From IMG/VR virus record IMGVR_UViG_3300046507_000506, positions 29,642-93,641 of that record: a DNA stretch of 64,000 nt; one strand, 5' to 3'. Every line of letters starts with the position of its first letter. Position 1 is the stretch's first letter. Below, one piece after another: positions 3,955 to 30,114 of the stretch. Made by a program: the position numbers and the translations under genes. The stretch comes from a virus. Below the pieces are notes generated by a model. That model was given only the letters and a program-made list of their open reading frames with translations, was not told the origin of the DNA and did no database searches.

Positions 3955-4203
3955 ATGGACTTACCGCAAGCTGATGGCGCTGACCCGGCCACCGTTTTCA
4001 CGGCCGCACTTGCCGCCCTGTTCAGCACACACCCCGATCCTGCGGCCCTCCTGAAGGCTTGGGAGCCCGTCGCCACGTCCATCCCCCTGATGATGCTGAA
4101 GAACGGCGCTACGGACGTGCACGCGAATGCAAACGTGGTGATCGCGCAGGCACTGCTCCATATCGCGCGAGTGAATGCAGGCGCGCCGCCACCTGTTGAC
4201 TAG
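3955..4203 (+). CDS. Small hypothetical protein divergent from HTH regulator
   Basis: 82 residues (MDLPQADGAD to APPPVD). I chose the ATG at 3955 because GGAGGG lies a few bases upstream; longer in-frame starts would run through the operator region. The protein is mostly helical with no transmembrane segment or metal motif. It reads away from the HTH gene and is followed directly by the structured RNA region. Function unknown. Confidence 0.5.
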   Translation: MDLPQADGADPATVFTAALAALFSTHPDPAALLKAWEPVATSIPLMMLKNGATDVHANANVVIAQALLHIARVNAGAPPPVD

Positions 4204-4230
4204 GAAACCCGCGCTTCATACACTGGCGAC

Positions 4231-4327
4231 GCTTTCACACATGGCGGCTTGGTGCAGTAAGAGCCTGCCCCGCCAGTGCCAGCCGGTCGCGCGAGCGACG
4301 TATGCGGATAGCCGCCATTGTGAAAGC
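4231..4327 (+). repeat. Long inverted repeat (hairpin) of about 18 bp
   Basis: GCTTTCACACATGGCGGCT at 4231-4249 pairs with AGCCGCCATTGTGAAAGC at 4310-4327, leaving a single bulged base. Inside the loop, GTCGC (4286-4290) and GCGAC (4295-4299) form a stem capped by the GNRA tetraloop GCGA. It is too long and has no T-tract, so it is not a simple terminator. Confidence 0.6.
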
Positions 4328-4328
4328 C

Positions 4329-4392
4329 GCTCCCATGCGGTCCAGTTAGCAAGTCGCCTTGTGCCGCTTGTCCGCATCGCTGCAATGGGAGC
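4329..4392 (+). repeat. Second inverted repeat upstream of tRNA-like element
   Basis: GCTCCCAT (4329-4336) is exactly inverted as ATGGGAGC (4385-4392). An inner stem GCGGA-type (4337-4341 region) pairs with TCCGC (4371-4375). The hairpin begins two bases after the previous one and ends ten bases before the tRNA-like element. Confidence 0.5.
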
Positions 4393-4401
4393 ACCTTCAG
4401 C

Positions 4402-4532
4402 ACGGCCGTAGCTCAGTTGGTAGAGCGCCCCTCGTATGGGGAGAGAAGTAGTCGCGAAATGGCGGTAGCGCCCGCGCGACGATCTTCCGGTATCGGCCGG
4501 TACGCGCGCGGGTTCGAATCCCGTCGGCCGTG
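4402..4532 (+). tRNA. tRNA-like element with about 60-base structured insertion
   Basis: Acceptor arms ACGGCCG (4402-4408) and CGGCCGT (4525-4531) pair perfectly. The D arm GCTC-AGTTGGTA-GAGC and the T arm GCGGG-TTCGAAT-CCCGT are canonical. The anticodon arm is poor: CCCC pairs with GGGG around TCGTAT and does not give a clean 7-base loop, so I assign no amino acid; CGU or GUA triplets are present. Between this arm and the T arm lie about 60 extra bases that fold on their own (GTCGCG 4451-4456 with CGCGAC 4475-4480; GGCG with CGCC inside; CCGG 4487-4490 with CCGG 4497-4500). No CCA is encoded. It may be a tRNA mimic, a degenerate tRNA or an unusual long-variable-arm tRNA. Confidence 0.5.
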
Positions 4533-4533
4533 C

Positions 4534-4633
4534 TGAGGGTGAATGGTGGACGTGAAACTATGTCCCTTACTTTGCATGCACTGACCTGCCTCTGACTGTA
4601 CTGCGAATCAGACCGAGTCATCATTCACTCTCA
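4534..4633 (+). repeat. 100-base hairpin bounded by TGAGGGTGAATG / CATTCACTCTCA
   Basis: The arms at 4534-4545 and 4622-4633 are inverted with one mismatch. The 5' arm starts two bases after the tRNA-like element. An inner stem TGACT/AGTCA lies towards the 3' side. The arm sequence recurs in the two hairpins downstream, so it looks like a repeated unit. Confidence 0.45.
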
Positions 4634-4789
4634 ACAGATGCGGAACCGTGGGCGGCGGTGAGTCAGTAGGGAAAGCGTCGATTGAACGATGTAGCGTTCG
4701 GCGCGGAGCCCGAAAGCAATAGACCGTGCGAGTGGTCGAGCATGCCGTTAAAGCGCAAGGTTCTGGCGCATGAGCAGGGGAAGGGCCTG

Positions 4790-4878
4790 CACTCTCACGC
4801 ATGGCGATCGGTGGAGTACCGTTCAAGAAATCGTCAGTTCCGTGCGCTTGCGGAACCAGTCGCCATGACGTGAGAGTG
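4790..4878 (+). repeat. 89-base hairpin with CACTCTCACG arms
   Basis: CACTCTCACGCATGGCGA (4790-4807) pairs with TCGCCATGACGTGAGAGTG (4860-4878) with one bulged base. Inside, GTTCCG and CGGAAC form a second stem. Its 3' arm TGAGAGTG is also the 5' arm of the next fold, so the two cannot form together. Confidence 0.5.
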
Positions 4879-4947
4879 ATCGGATAGTGGAAAGCGCAGG
4901 CGTCACAGCCGTCTAGCAGGGTTCGATACCGTGCCCTTTCACTCTCA
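4871..4947 (+). repeat. 77-base fold closed by TGAGAGTGA / TCACTCTCA, partly tRNA-like
   Basis: A perfect 9-base stem (4871-4879 with 4939-4947) encloses AGGCG/CGTCT with a 7-base loop, and GGGTTCGATACC, which resembles a T arm. Six extra bases before the 3' acceptor strand and a poor D arm make a functional tRNA unlikely. It competes with the preceding hairpin for the same 5' strand. Confidence 0.35.
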
Positions 4948-5031
4948 ACGCGCGGCCTGTAAGGGTTGTACCGGCCAGCCAGTGACCCCTTAAAAGGTCC
5001 GCCGCGCACCCTTCCCCCTCACACCACCACC

Positions 5032-22989: not shown

Positions 22990-23711
22990 TCGTCGTTGAC
23001 TGCGATCAGGGCACGCCCGAATGGCACGCTGCGCGTGCTGGCGTCATCACCGCCAGCATGTTCAGCACCGCCCGCAAGTACAAGGCGGGCGGCGAAATGT
23101 CGGAAACCGCCAAAAACTACGCGTTCAAGCTTGCCATCGAGCGGATCAGCGGCGTGCCGCTCGATGAGTGCCATCAAACGTGGCAGATGACGCGTGGCCA
23201 ACGGCTCGAACCTGAAGCCCGCGATCACCACATGGCTGATATTGGCCGCCGCGTCAAACAGGTCGGGCTCGTGCTCAGTGATGACCGGAAGTTCGGCGCG
23301 AGCGCGGACGGCGCGATTGACGGTGACCCGCAAGGGCCGGGCGGTGCCGAATACAAGTGTCTCGTGAGCCCGCTCGAACTGCGCAAGGTCTACACCGAGA
23401 ACGACTACATGAAGTTCTACGATCAGGTGATGGGCGGCCTGTGGCTCACCGGCAAAAACTGGTGGGACTTTTGTGTGTACTGCCCCGCCATGCGCAACGT
23501 GAACAAGCATTTCAGGCGCTGGCGCATCCGGCGCGATGACGACTATATCGACGCCATGTCGCTCGACCTCGTTGCATTCGACAACCTGGTCGAGAGCTAC
23601 CGCGCCACGCTGATGATCGAAGCCGATCCGGCAGTAATGGAGGCCGCTGCTGCAACGCTCGACCCGCTTTCGCGCGCCCTTCTGATACCACCTGGTATCA
23701 GTGTTATGTGA
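22986..23711 (+). CDS. YqaJ-type viral recombinase exonuclease
   Basis: 241 residues from GTG at 22986 coupled to ERF. Motifs of lambda-exonuclease-like YqaJ proteins: [16 protein letters not shown] near the start, [21 protein letters not shown] with the metal-binding Asp, and AEYKCLV with E and K. It resects DNA ends to give 3' strands for ERF. The tail includes a palindromic DNA site (23682-23701) over its last codons. Confidence 0.88.
23682..23701. promoter_or_regulatory. TGATACCA-CC-TGGTATCA palindrome (partition-like site 1)
   Basis: CTGATACCA and its exact inverse TGGTATCAG with CC between, inside the end of the exonuclease gene and just before rdgC. Three related sites lie upstream of parA. 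Confidence 0.6.
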
Positions 23712-23745
23712 CCTTGTAACACAACATAAAAACAGGATATTTCAC

Positions 23746-24867
23746 ATGTGGTTTCGTAATCTCACCCTCTACTCGTTTGACAGCATCCCGACGCTGGAAA
23801 GCCTGAATGCCGCGCTCATGACGCGCCGCTATACGCCGTGCACGGACATAGAGCAGTCCTCAGCCGGGTTCGTGCCGCCGCGCGGCGACGATGCCCTGCT
23901 CGTGCTGCCGGTCGATACCCAGTGGCAGATTGCGCTGTGCATCGAGCAGAAGGTGCTGCCCGGCTCTGTCGTGCGCGACGAAACCGAACGGCGCGCGGCC
24001 GAAGTCGAGCGCTTGCAGGGTTTCAAGCCCGGCCGCAAGCAGCGCCGCGAAATCAAGGATGAGGCAACCGACATGCTGCTCGCGCAGGCATTCAGCAGGC
24101 GCAAGACGGTGCGCGGCTGGATCGACACGCGCCGCGCGATTCTCGCCATCGATACCGCCTCGACCACGACCGCCGATCTGTTCGTGGCGAACCTGCTGCG
24201 CGCCATCGAGGCCAATATCGGCCTGCGCCCGCTCAAAACCGTGCTGAGTCCGGTTGACGTAATGACGGCATGGGTTGGCGAGAGCGACGCGCCTGACGGC
24301 TTCACGATTGACAGCGACGCGACGTTCTCAGGCTCCAATCGCGGCGTCGTGAAGTACTCGAACACCGCCCTTGAGGGTGCGGACGTGGCAAGCCAGATTG
24401 AAGCCGGAAAGCGCGTGACGCGCCTCGCAATGACTTGGGGTGACAAAGTCTCGTTCGTGTTTTCGTCTGACCTCGTGATCCGCCGCGTGAACCCGCTCGA
24501 CGTGCTCAAGGAAAAGCCGGAAGACGGCAAGCTGTCGGCCGCTGCCGATTTCCTGCTGATGGCCGAATGCCTCGCCGCGCTCGTGCAGGCGCTCGTTGCC
24601 TCGCTTGATGGCATCGCGCCGGTGTCCGACCTCGCCGACGAGGAGCCTGCCGCCCCTACCCTGCCCGCCGACGGCGACGACCTGCTGCCGCAGGCCCGCG
24701 ATATCGTCATCAAGAATGAGCGCGCGTCTATCTCGCTCGTGCAGCGGCACCTGCGCATTGGCTACAACCGCGCTGCCGCCCTGCTCGAAGCCCTGGAGGC
24801 CGCTGGCGTGGTAAGCGAAATGAAATCCAATGGCTCGCGTGACGTTCTCGCAGGAGCGCAAGCATGA
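23746..24867 (+). CDS. rdgC: RdgC fused to an FtsK-gamma-like winged helix
   Basis: 373 residues from ATG at 23746. Residues 1 to about 300 are Rdg[12 protein letters not shown] start, [45 protein letters not shown]. RdgC forms DNA-encircling rings and limits RecA. From about 311 comes [20 protein letters not shown], then [21 protein letters not shown], which matches the FtsK gamma domain (KOPS-reading winged helix). Normal RdgC is about 300 residues, so this is a fusion. The next gene (ParB-like) starts inside its stop. Confidence 0.82.
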
Positions 24868-28787: not shown

Positions 28788-28881
28788 TCCTTTGTGCGGC
28801 TCACCCTCTAAAGTAACCTTGCAAGTGTTGCGCATGGTTACTTTGCGGCGTACGATACCGCCGAATGAAGGAGGGCATCCA

Positions 28882-30114
28882 ATGCCGAGAGCAAAACCCA
28901 AGACACTGGAAGCGCCGCCGAGCATCGGCGGCCGTAGCGAAGTCAAGAAACACAATAACGCAATTCACGTCAGCGGCGAGCTTTCGCTCGTTGGCCGCAA
29001 GCTCGTGAATGTGCTGCTGCTCAATGCATACGACAATCTCGCGCGGCAGCGCGATCACACCATTCCGGTGCCGCTGCTGTGCGACCTGATCGGTTGGGAG
29101 AGTAGCGGCAACATCGACAGCCTCAAAGACGCGCTGCGTCAGTTGGCATCGACGCCAATAGAGTTCGACCTGTTCAACCGCGACGGCAAGCCCACATGGG
29201 ACGTTACCGCGATGGTTGCGCACGCACGCATTGAGGGCGGCGTGTGCCGGTACGAGTACAGCAAATTCCTGTCTGAAAAACTCTCGGACCCGGAAATGTA
29301 TTCGATCATCAATATCGGCGTGCAGCGCGAGTTCAAGGGCGCGTACTCCCTTACCCTATATGAGAACTGTCTGCGCTTTCGCGGCACAGAAAGCGGCTCG
29401 ACGGGATGGTGGCCTATCGCGACGTGGCGCAAGGTGCTCGGCGCAAATGCCGCGCTATACGACGAGTTCAAGTTCTTTTCGAGCAAGGTCATCAAGCCCG
29501 CCGTTGACGAAATCAACAAGGTTTCCGACCTGATCGTTGAGCCCGAATACCAGCGTAAGGGCCGCTTCGTCACAGATATCCGGTTTCTCGTGAAAGACAA
29601 TCCGCAGCGTTCACTGCTCGACATGACGACAGACGCGAGCGGCGCAAAGGATTCGGACGCCTACAAACTGCTCGTTGAACTGGGCGTCGGCGCGACGCTC
29701 GCGCTCTCGATGGTGACGAAAGACGAGGCGCGCGCGGCTGAGATTGCCCGCTACACAAAGGAACGGCTCGATAGCGGTGAAATCACCGGCAGCGCGGGCG
29801 GCTATGCGCGCACGCTGTTCGAGACAAACGCGGTCGTGAAGAAACCGGCGAAACGAAAGGGTGCAGACAAGAAAGCCGATGGAGTGGGGGAGGGCGGGAG
29901 CGAGGCCGACGAGCAAGCCAGCAAGACGCGCGCGGCGGTTGCGGCGTTGACCGCAGAGGAGCGGGCCGCGCTCGCTGCCGAGTTCATCACGAACACCGGA
30001 ACGAGCGCGACATATGATGCAGGCAAAGACAAGGTTGGCACCCTGGTGGAGACTCGCCAGTATCGCGACTTCACGCGGCAGCGGGCGGCCGACGTGATCG
30101 CCGCGCGCCGTTAG
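28882..30114 (+). CDS. repA: Rep_3-family plasmid replication initiator
   Basis: 410 residues from ATG at 28882, preceded by AAGGAGG. Rep_3 winged-helix features: NNAIHVSGELSLVGRKLVNVL near the front, LCDLIGWESSGNIDSLKDAL, then YEYSKFLSEKLSDP and SLTLYENCLRFRG. Two winged-helix domains bind the iterons directly upstream and load host DnaB. From residue 290 the protein continues into a charged, flexible extension. Iterons, ParA and this initiator define a low-copy plasmid replicon within a phage genome. No copy-control gene is seen. Confidence 0.88.
   Translation: MPRAKPKTLEAPPSIGGRSEVKKHNNAIHVSGELSLVGRKLVNVLLLNAYDNLARQRDHTIPVPLLCDLIGWESSGNIDSLKDALRQLASTPIEFDLFNRDGKPTWDVTAMVAHARIEGGVCRYEYSKFLSEKLSDPEMYSIINIGVQREFKGAYSLTLYENCLRFRGTESGSTGWWPIATWRKVLGANAALYDEFKFFSSKVIKPAVDEINKVSDLIVEPEYQRKGRFVTDIRFLVKDNPQRSLLDMTTDASGAKDSDAYKLLVELGVGATLALSMVTKDEARAAEIARYTKERLDSGEITGSAGGYARTLFETNAVVKKPAKRKGADKKADGVGEGGSEADEQASKTRAAVAALTAEERAALAAEFITNTGTSATYDAGKDKVGTLVETRQYRDFTRQRAADVIAARR

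Follow-up and report, generated by a model that had tools for sequence, protein, structure and literature searches.

A conserved, non-decoding tRNA-like RNA domain in arrays of linker-joined modules of temperate phages and phage-plasmids

A stretch of 64,000 nucleotides of viral DNA (here the window; bases 29642-93641 of the 93,641-base virus record IMGVR_UViG_3300046507_000506) was analyzed for an element with partial likeness to tRNA. Comparison with homologues revealed that the element is real, under structural conservation and not decaying. On the same comparative grounds it is a non-decoding tRNA-like domain, neither an intron-bearing nor a decaying tRNA, and forms one cassette in a longer array of structured RNA modules joined by linkers.

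Terminase subunits and a portal protein are encoded in the window together with:

28792-30114: Rep3 plasmid initiator
24864-25763: ParB-like protein

Because all of these are encoded in the window, the replicon is most likely a phage-plasmid. The nearest annotated relative found was pBVIE05, a plasmid of Burkholderia vietnamiensis G4 that also has the tRNA-like element. In the window the element lies in a noncoding gap that extends from the end of an ORF at 4203 to the next ORF, whose start (4966 or 5032) is a matter of our choice.

By Rfam scan, the tRNA family (RF00005) was found to match positions 4402-4532 of the plus strand at 43.7 bits, with E values of 5.3e-6 in the scan of all 64 kb and 7.9e-8 in a local scan. 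This was the sole match above a gathering cut-off in the whole window, and it agrees with the coordinates given in the original prediction. ARAGORN, which had been named there as a check, did not report a tRNA anywhere in the window. As had been described, intact acceptor, D and T arms are present; the acceptor, however, extends to 9 bp (4400-4408/4525-4533) and, when its flanks are included, makes a stem of 17 nt with 94% complementarity (4392-4408/4525-4541). The anticodon arm had been called poor, and the hairpin in its place does have only 4 bp and a 6-nt loop (CCCC-UCGUAU-GGGG). The insert was also seen to fold by itself, into two hairpins (4445-4487 and 4490-4503), and GIRTRA can be read from the sequence antisense to the T arm. 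The parts of the cassette, designated C, are as follows:

4392..4541, plus strand: whole tRNA-like cassette C; linker copies CACCTTCA (4392) and TGAGGGTG (4534) lengthen the end stem
4400..4408, plus strand: 5' strand of the 9-bp acceptor-like stem, which pairs with 4525-4533 (sequence; covariance helix 1)
4411..4426, plus strand: D arm of 4 bp, with A14, R15, G18 G19 and A21
4428..4441, plus strand: X hairpin in the anticodon position, CCCC-UCGUAU-GGGG, with no 7-nt anticodon loop
4445..4487, plus strand: Y arm, with GAAG/CUUC base and inner GUCGCG..CGCGAC and GGCG..CGCC hairpin
4490..4503, plus strand: Z hairpin, GUAUC-GGCC-GGUAC, with self-complementary GGCC loop
4508..4524, plus strand: T arm, loop UUCGAAU
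4525..4533, plus strand: 3' strand of the acceptor-like stem, with no CCA after it

The folding energy of the element alone was unremarkable (z of -1.46, 21 of 200 shuffles as good). Since this lies within the shuffle range, the support beyond chance comes from the covariance model and from covariation among homologues.

Homologues of the element were detected in phage-plasmids and prophages of Burkholderia and enterobacteria. L002/L053, the virus whose terminase is closest (83%), contains the element, and the sequence changes in its copy preserve the stems. By BLAST, the element was located in P1-like phage-plasmids of Salmonella, Citrobacter, Enterobacter, Serratia and E. coli, and in Cronobacter phage JK004. 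Pattern scans of viral contigs returned 4, 19 and 23 stretches; L053 and L002 are one contig, and the 23-stretch scan found L050, L051 and L052 again. The exact T-arm pattern gave 0 matches in viral contigs, the Burkholderia-type Z/T pattern matched L053 alone, and a pattern for module E of the array (see below) matched L053 and a chance site in an apparent coding region of L054. The search patterns included part of the X arm (4-stretch scan) or part of the Y 3' strand and Z arm (19- and 23-stretch scans); conservation of X, the Y 3' strand and Z is therefore partly by construction. The acceptor, the Y 5' strand, the Y tip and the T arm were absent from these patterns, and the D arm was represented by its 3' strand only, in one of them. 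An ordinary CAU tRNA was noted near the tRNA-like cassette in L055 (where it is annotated as tRNA-Ile), L060, L061, L062, L096, L101 and L104.

The element was rare in bacterial genomes. Four pattern matches were obtained in genome contigs, and two were confirmed by model, in Yersinia massiliensis and Raoultella ornithinolytica; the genome contigs L120 and L121 were chance pattern matches, neither of which is matched by covariance model R2. In the family to which the Raoultella genome belongs, 2 of 392 genomes (itself included; no more than 8 candidates scored per genome) were positive, as was 1 of 5,426 E. coli genomes. When 20 whole records of terminase relatives were searched with R1, the element was found only in the record of the window itself and in that of L002; weak R1 matches in G008, G018 and G019 fall within the range of ordinary tRNAs.

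Two alignments were used to examine the structure of the element. A1 holds all 44 distinct sequences out of 55 loci, including three Burkholderia-type copies (that of the window and two others). A2 holds 29 enteric copies, hand-picked from the 41 non-Burkholderia sequences to remove near-duplicates. Three later finds (L119, L122 and L127) stand outside both. In A1, a common structure of 38 pairs is kept: 96.8% of 1667 cells were paired, 21 of the 38 pairs had changed on both sides, and 0 of 500 shuffles matched the observed value on any of five measures. Pairing dropped to 40-51% when the partners were slid out of register. In A2, 98.4% of cells were paired and both-side changes were present at 12 pairs. 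RNAalifold, left to its own choice of structure, recovered the D, X, Y, Z and T arms and three outer acceptor pairs. The X hairpin (helix 3) has both-side changes at 2 of its 4 pairs. The 9-bp acceptor stem was paired in 90.7% of cells in A1, many of the misses being due to a bulged A in rows with GUUGUGGAUG, and L053 and L056 retain it with A-U replacing C-G.

The covariance model R2 was built from A2 and thus without the three Burkholderia-type copies. It recovered the window element at 64.9 bits (E of 6e-13), the copies of L002/L053 at 80.5 bits and that of L056 at 63.8 bits. Non-family matches of R2 reached at most 30.3 bits among the 21 sources searched, and R1 gave ordinary tRNA-sized matches of up to 35.3 bits on two genomes. 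The window element thus belongs to the family, as it is matched well above ordinary tRNAs by a model that excludes its Burkholderia-type kin. Compensatory changes in every arm, together with the spread of the element across unrelated phages, contradict the possibility of a decaying tRNA that the original prediction had raised.

The elbow of a tRNA is retained nearly without exception. U8, A14, R15, C56, R57 and A58 were present in all 44 copies and U54 and U55 in 43, near-invariance that supports the suggested tRNA ancestry or mimicry. Other tRNA hallmarks are missing. The X hairpin, 14 nt long in 43 of the 44 copies, carries loops of 4-6 nt that vary (UGAA, UCGUAU, UUGUGU and AGCA among them), and for this reason it cannot be a normal anticodon arm; no 7-nt anticodon loop is present on the stem after the D arm. 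The 7-bp acceptor and 5-bp T stem (12 bp) of a decoding tRNA were likewise not found, the acceptor being 9 bp. The tip of the Y arm forms an anticodon-like loop in which U is followed by CAU (32 of 44 copies), CGC (6 of 44) or CGU (3 of 44), and in enteric copies a 2x2 internal loop precedes the CAU loop, which has an arm of its own. The three Burkholderia-type copies, that of the window included, have other Y tips and no anticodon-like loop. The Z loop is self-complementary and reads GGCC in most copies, and kissing between such palindromic loops is conceivable. CCA directly follows the acceptor, or follows it after one base, in 10 of 44 copies and is absent from 34, including that of the window. 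An intron-bearing tRNA, as had also been proposed, does not fit: removal of the insert leaves the 14-nt hairpin with its varied 4-6 nt loop and no normal anticodon arm, and the insert is itself a conserved, covarying structure of two arms. The tmRNA-like option found no backing either, neither ARAGORN nor Rfam giving a tmRNA match in the window.

The original prediction did not mention the array to which the element belongs. Its other modules in the window are listed below, with the cassette C between hairpins B and D:

4196..4224, plus strand: weak match to a sigma-70-like promoter, ahead of the array (1 found versus 0.5 expected)
4231..4327, plus strand: hairpin A (GCUUUCACA..UGUGAAAGC)
4324..4397, plus strand: hairpin B (CGCUCCCAU..AUGGGAGCAC)
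4531..4636, plus strand: hairpin D, with a 5' arm that overlaps the 3' arm of cassette C
4626..4798, plus strand: module E, noncoding, between CACTCTCA repeats
4790..4879, plus strand: hairpin F (CACUCUCACGCAUGGCGA..UCGCCAUGACGUGAGAGUG)
4871..4948, plus strand: hairpin G (UGAGAGUGA..UCACUCUCA), with T-loop-like GGGUUCGAUACC

The arms of adjacent modules overlap, the 3' arm of hairpin B (4385-4397) with the 5' arm of the tRNA-like cassette (4392-4408) and the 3' arm of the latter (4525-4541) with the 5' arm of hairpin D (4531-4548). The linker pair of the window is CACUCUCA/UGAGAGUG. All four copies of CACTCTCA in the 64 kb were located within 4626-4947, and four copies anywhere were obtained in 2 of 100 shuffles. 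The stretch 4206-4965 folded better than its 20 shuffles (z of -2.59), compared to a z of -0.66, with 4 of 20 shuffles as good, for a terminase-coding control of the same length. No terminator above shuffle level, and none that was RprA- or DicF-like, was detected in the window. The stretch of hairpin B (4321-4406) has 83.5% identity over 91 bases in L011, a record without the tRNA-like cassette, in which hairpin B is joined at the linker straight to a module F without C, D and E. This arrangement looks as if C-D-E had been excised between two linkers. The noncoding block 4626-4808 has 88.5% identity to L053 over 183 bases, which is above most neighbouring stretches; it had no BLAST match in L056 or L011.

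Enteric arrays use a different linker, CACAAC, and its complement GUUGUG. CACAAC was detected 35-160 bases upstream in 37 of 50 loci versus 79 of 2578 background stretches, the remaining 13 loci having none in the upstream stretch tested. The enteric GUUGUG closes the upstream hairpin and doubles as the 5' acceptor strand of the tRNA-like fold. The two competing closings could be compared at 10 of 16 loci (at two no partner was obtained, and at four the register failed), with energy differences between -7.4 and +4.2 kcal/mol. Balance between the folds does not hold at every locus, L055 favouring the upstream hairpin by 7.4 kcal/mol. A separate second CACAAC was present at +129..+133 in 9 of 24 loci; the total downstream count (35 of 52) is not evidence, because the 3' strand of the acceptor is itself included. 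Integron attC sites have the core RYYYAAC, and attC-like sites, considered for the short inverted core, were rejected as CACAAC does not fit it.

Comparison of the loci showed shuffling of the linker-bounded cassettes between phages. Of the locus pairs among 31 distinct combinations, 15 were at least 90% identical in the upstream module and at most 85% identical in the tRNA-like cassette, and 12 were at least 95% identical in the tRNA-like cassette and at most 65% identical in the upstream module. Besides a P1-like plasmid of E. coli, pBVIE05 contains a module starting GGTGAATGC(G/A)CAGGCTGATG(C/T)GC, and pBVIE05 has a second, related copy of it. What the arrays of beta- and gammaproteobacterial phages have in common is thus not limited to the tRNA-like cassette. 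Upstream modules are often found where that cassette is missing, parts of one array matching 1,274 of 5,426 E. coli genomes and 72 phage records. The upstream modules of L072 and L092 contain two T-arm-like hairpins (loops UUCAAUU and UUCGAUU), and a similar module sits downstream of the tRNA-like cassette in L086. In L130 (885-1615; P1-like E. coli plasmid pKFu022_2), an array adjoins tRNA genes, with no tRNA-like cassette in the stretch examined.

A cI-type repressor (phrog_4, an assignment that rests on one representative) was found upstream and in the same direction in 23 of 38 loci. The other 15 had no cI-like neighbour within 3.5 kb, some of these loci being short. Genes of phrog_204 type follow in 12 of the 38 loci and those of phrog_210 type in 7. 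The array of many prophages sits between cI and the early operon, with a DicF- or RprA-like terminator (below cut-off) at its end. In Salmonella phage-plasmids the array is followed by a short gene and then the repressor c1, and lpa, pacA and terminase come after the array of E. coli CH468. In many arrays the last part is GCUGUGUGUAGUCUU together with a terminator-like hairpin. RprA-like ends (RF00034) scored 63.4, 55.2, 45.1 and 37.4 bits, all below the cut-off of 70; such 3' ends close the arrays at L128 (31067-31169) and in L060, L067 and L131. On neighbouring modules, DicF-like hairpins (RF00039) scored 33.0 and 29.1 bits versus a cut-off of 48, and an STnc100-like module (RF02076) scored 20.3 bits versus 47. 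An intrinsic terminator directly after the tRNA-like cassette was rejected as a general rule, with only 4 of 28 loci having one under the filters used. Downstream of the tRNA-like cassette, GGGCUCAUAACCC, which we take to be the initiator-tRNA anticodon stem-loop, recurs in 14 of 52 loci (at +244 to +476 from the tRNA-like start in L050, L051, L066 and others).

From the structure and the array described above, we infer a function for both. The chances seem to us even that the tRNA-like domain, without decoding, acts within its array of RNA modules as a leader/processing and regulatory RNA. The array would probably be made as one long noncoding leader transcript for an early operon, or for one of the immunity or packaging region, in temperate phages and phage-plasmids. 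In the growing transcript, the upstream hairpin and the tRNA-like fold may compete for the 5' acceptor strand that they share, and the completed tRNA-like fold could then be recognized by a host tRNA-binding factor. Recognition would set how the transcript is cut or ended, and thereby both the choice of small RNAs set free and the expression of the operon that follows. RNase P is our guess at the first candidate for the host factor; against it, the acceptor and T stem together make 14 bp, longer than the usual 12. Also against this reading, conservation of the extra arms exceeds what processing alone would demand, a point in favour of a specific ligand.

By analogy, the nearest working models may be P4 CI RNA and DicF; antitermination of the HK022 put type is a further conceivable parallel. 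P4 CI RNA and P1 C4 RNA are phage-immunity leader RNAs with repeated complementary stretches, of which CI is matured by RNase P; we know of no tRNA-like domain in either, and the arrays resemble RNAs of the P4 CI type in complementary linkers alone. The dicBF prophage transcript is similar in that arrays follow a cI-type repressor and some loci have the DicF-like hairpin (sub-cut-off). It differs in that no tRNA-like domain is described for DicF in the portions of the sources at hand, and the window array has no DicF-like end.

The main rival to the leader/processing reading is a decoy acting in trans, in which a stable tRNA-mimic RNA would be released and would occupy a putative host target, either a tRNA-attacking enzyme or the initiation machinery. 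We consider this improbable but deserving of weight. Candidate targets would be an anticodon nuclease, a VapC-like toxin or a tRNA-sensing defence, with the shuffling of cassettes as the mark of an arms race. Consistent with a decoy are that shuffling, the U plus CAU, CGC or CGU of the Y-tip loop in 41 of 44 copies, and the initiator-like stem-loop downstream in 14 of 52 loci. Phage tRNAs are described as countering tRNA-targeting defence in the excerpts available of two reports (PMC10264068, PMC11455837), and this published counter-defence also fits. The three Burkholderia-type copies, including that of the window, argue against a decoy in having no anticodon-like Y loop.

It is unlikely that the element works at the level of DNA, with linkers as recombination sites and structures that matter as DNA. 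Cassette exchange at short direct repeats would suit such an element, but G-U pairs are common among the kept pairs, which fits RNA rather than DNA, and the conserved bases of the T and D loops make RNA tertiary motifs. We regard a working, decoding tRNA of unusual shape (for Met or Ile2 in enterics) as very unlikely. The tRNA-Met label given by PGAP to the E. coli CH468 copy, the CAU in a 7-nt loop of most enteric copies and the CCA of 10 of the 44 copies would speak for it. Set against these are the 14-nt hairpin with its 4-6 nt loop after the D arm, the placement of the CAU loop on a separate arm, the 9+5 bp acceptor/T helix, the missing CCA of the other 34 copies, the window copy without a candidate anticodon loop, and the normal CAU tRNA that several of these phages have alongside. 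A degenerate tRNA or chance tRNA-like sequence, which the folding energy by itself would allow, is hardly credible and, unless the alignment is wrong, is refuted by compensatory changes in all arms and by the blind recovery of the window element with R2.

More broadly, we tentatively suggest that temperate phages may carry combinatorial arrays of interchangeable, self-folding RNA cassettes that share one closing linker pair, are reassorted by recombination and act jointly on host RNA-handling enzymes. The repertoire would include tRNA-like cassettes, T-arm hairpins, initiator-like anticodon hairpins and STnc100-, DicF- and RprA-like pieces, as an RNA counterpart of a gene-cassette platform. 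The family is a covariation-supported phage tRNA-like RNA of beta- and gammaproteobacterial hosts whose members are missed or mislabeled by tRNA finders, and the tRNA-like cassette serves as a marker for control regions, in temperate phages and P1-like phage-plasmids, that contain arrays of shuffled RNA modules. Acting in trans, such arrays would amount to a new phage arsenal; acting in cis, they would control early operons in a new way.

Compared to known RNAs, the element is most like canonical tRNA (RF00005) in its acceptor, D and T arms and elbow bases, and it scored above the RF00005 cut-off in 11 of 14 loci scanned and in the window. It is unlike canonical tRNA in the 9-bp acceptor, the 14-nt hairpin in place of the anticodon arm, the two extra arms and the CCA that is mostly absent, and its Burkholderia-type copies are embedded in a longer stem. 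The GCUGUGUGUAGUCUU-hairpin ends of many arrays resemble the RprA 3' end; matches to RprA and STnc100 are sub-cut-off and lie on neighbouring modules, never on the tRNA-like one. In animals, mascRNA-menRNA uses a tRNA-like element with different arms as a processing signal, and the match of this family (RF01684) in the window was weak (19.9 bits versus a cut-off of 42.5). The bacterial Y RNA YrlA is a noncoding RNA with a tRNA-mimic module; no Y RNA family was matched in any Rfam scan of the window and the loci scanned. GOLLD and ROOL are likewise large, ornate phage RNAs near tRNA genes, with no Rfam match in the window or in other loci scanned. The linker of GOLLD contains tRNAs, according to the part of the report available (PMC12286853). 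Matches to tRNA and STnc100 near prophage sRNAs are given in a further source, the accessible part of which does not describe the tRNA-like element (PMC13192938). No description of this tRNA-like family was found among titles and the starts of abstracts, a body of text that scarcely covers subscription journals and the dicF-type prophage work of the 1990s. Elsewhere in the window, an RdgC domain and an FtsK gamma domain (Pfam, 274.5 and 80.6 bits) were found joined in one ORF (23701-24867), a fusion that is unusual for a phage-plasmid.
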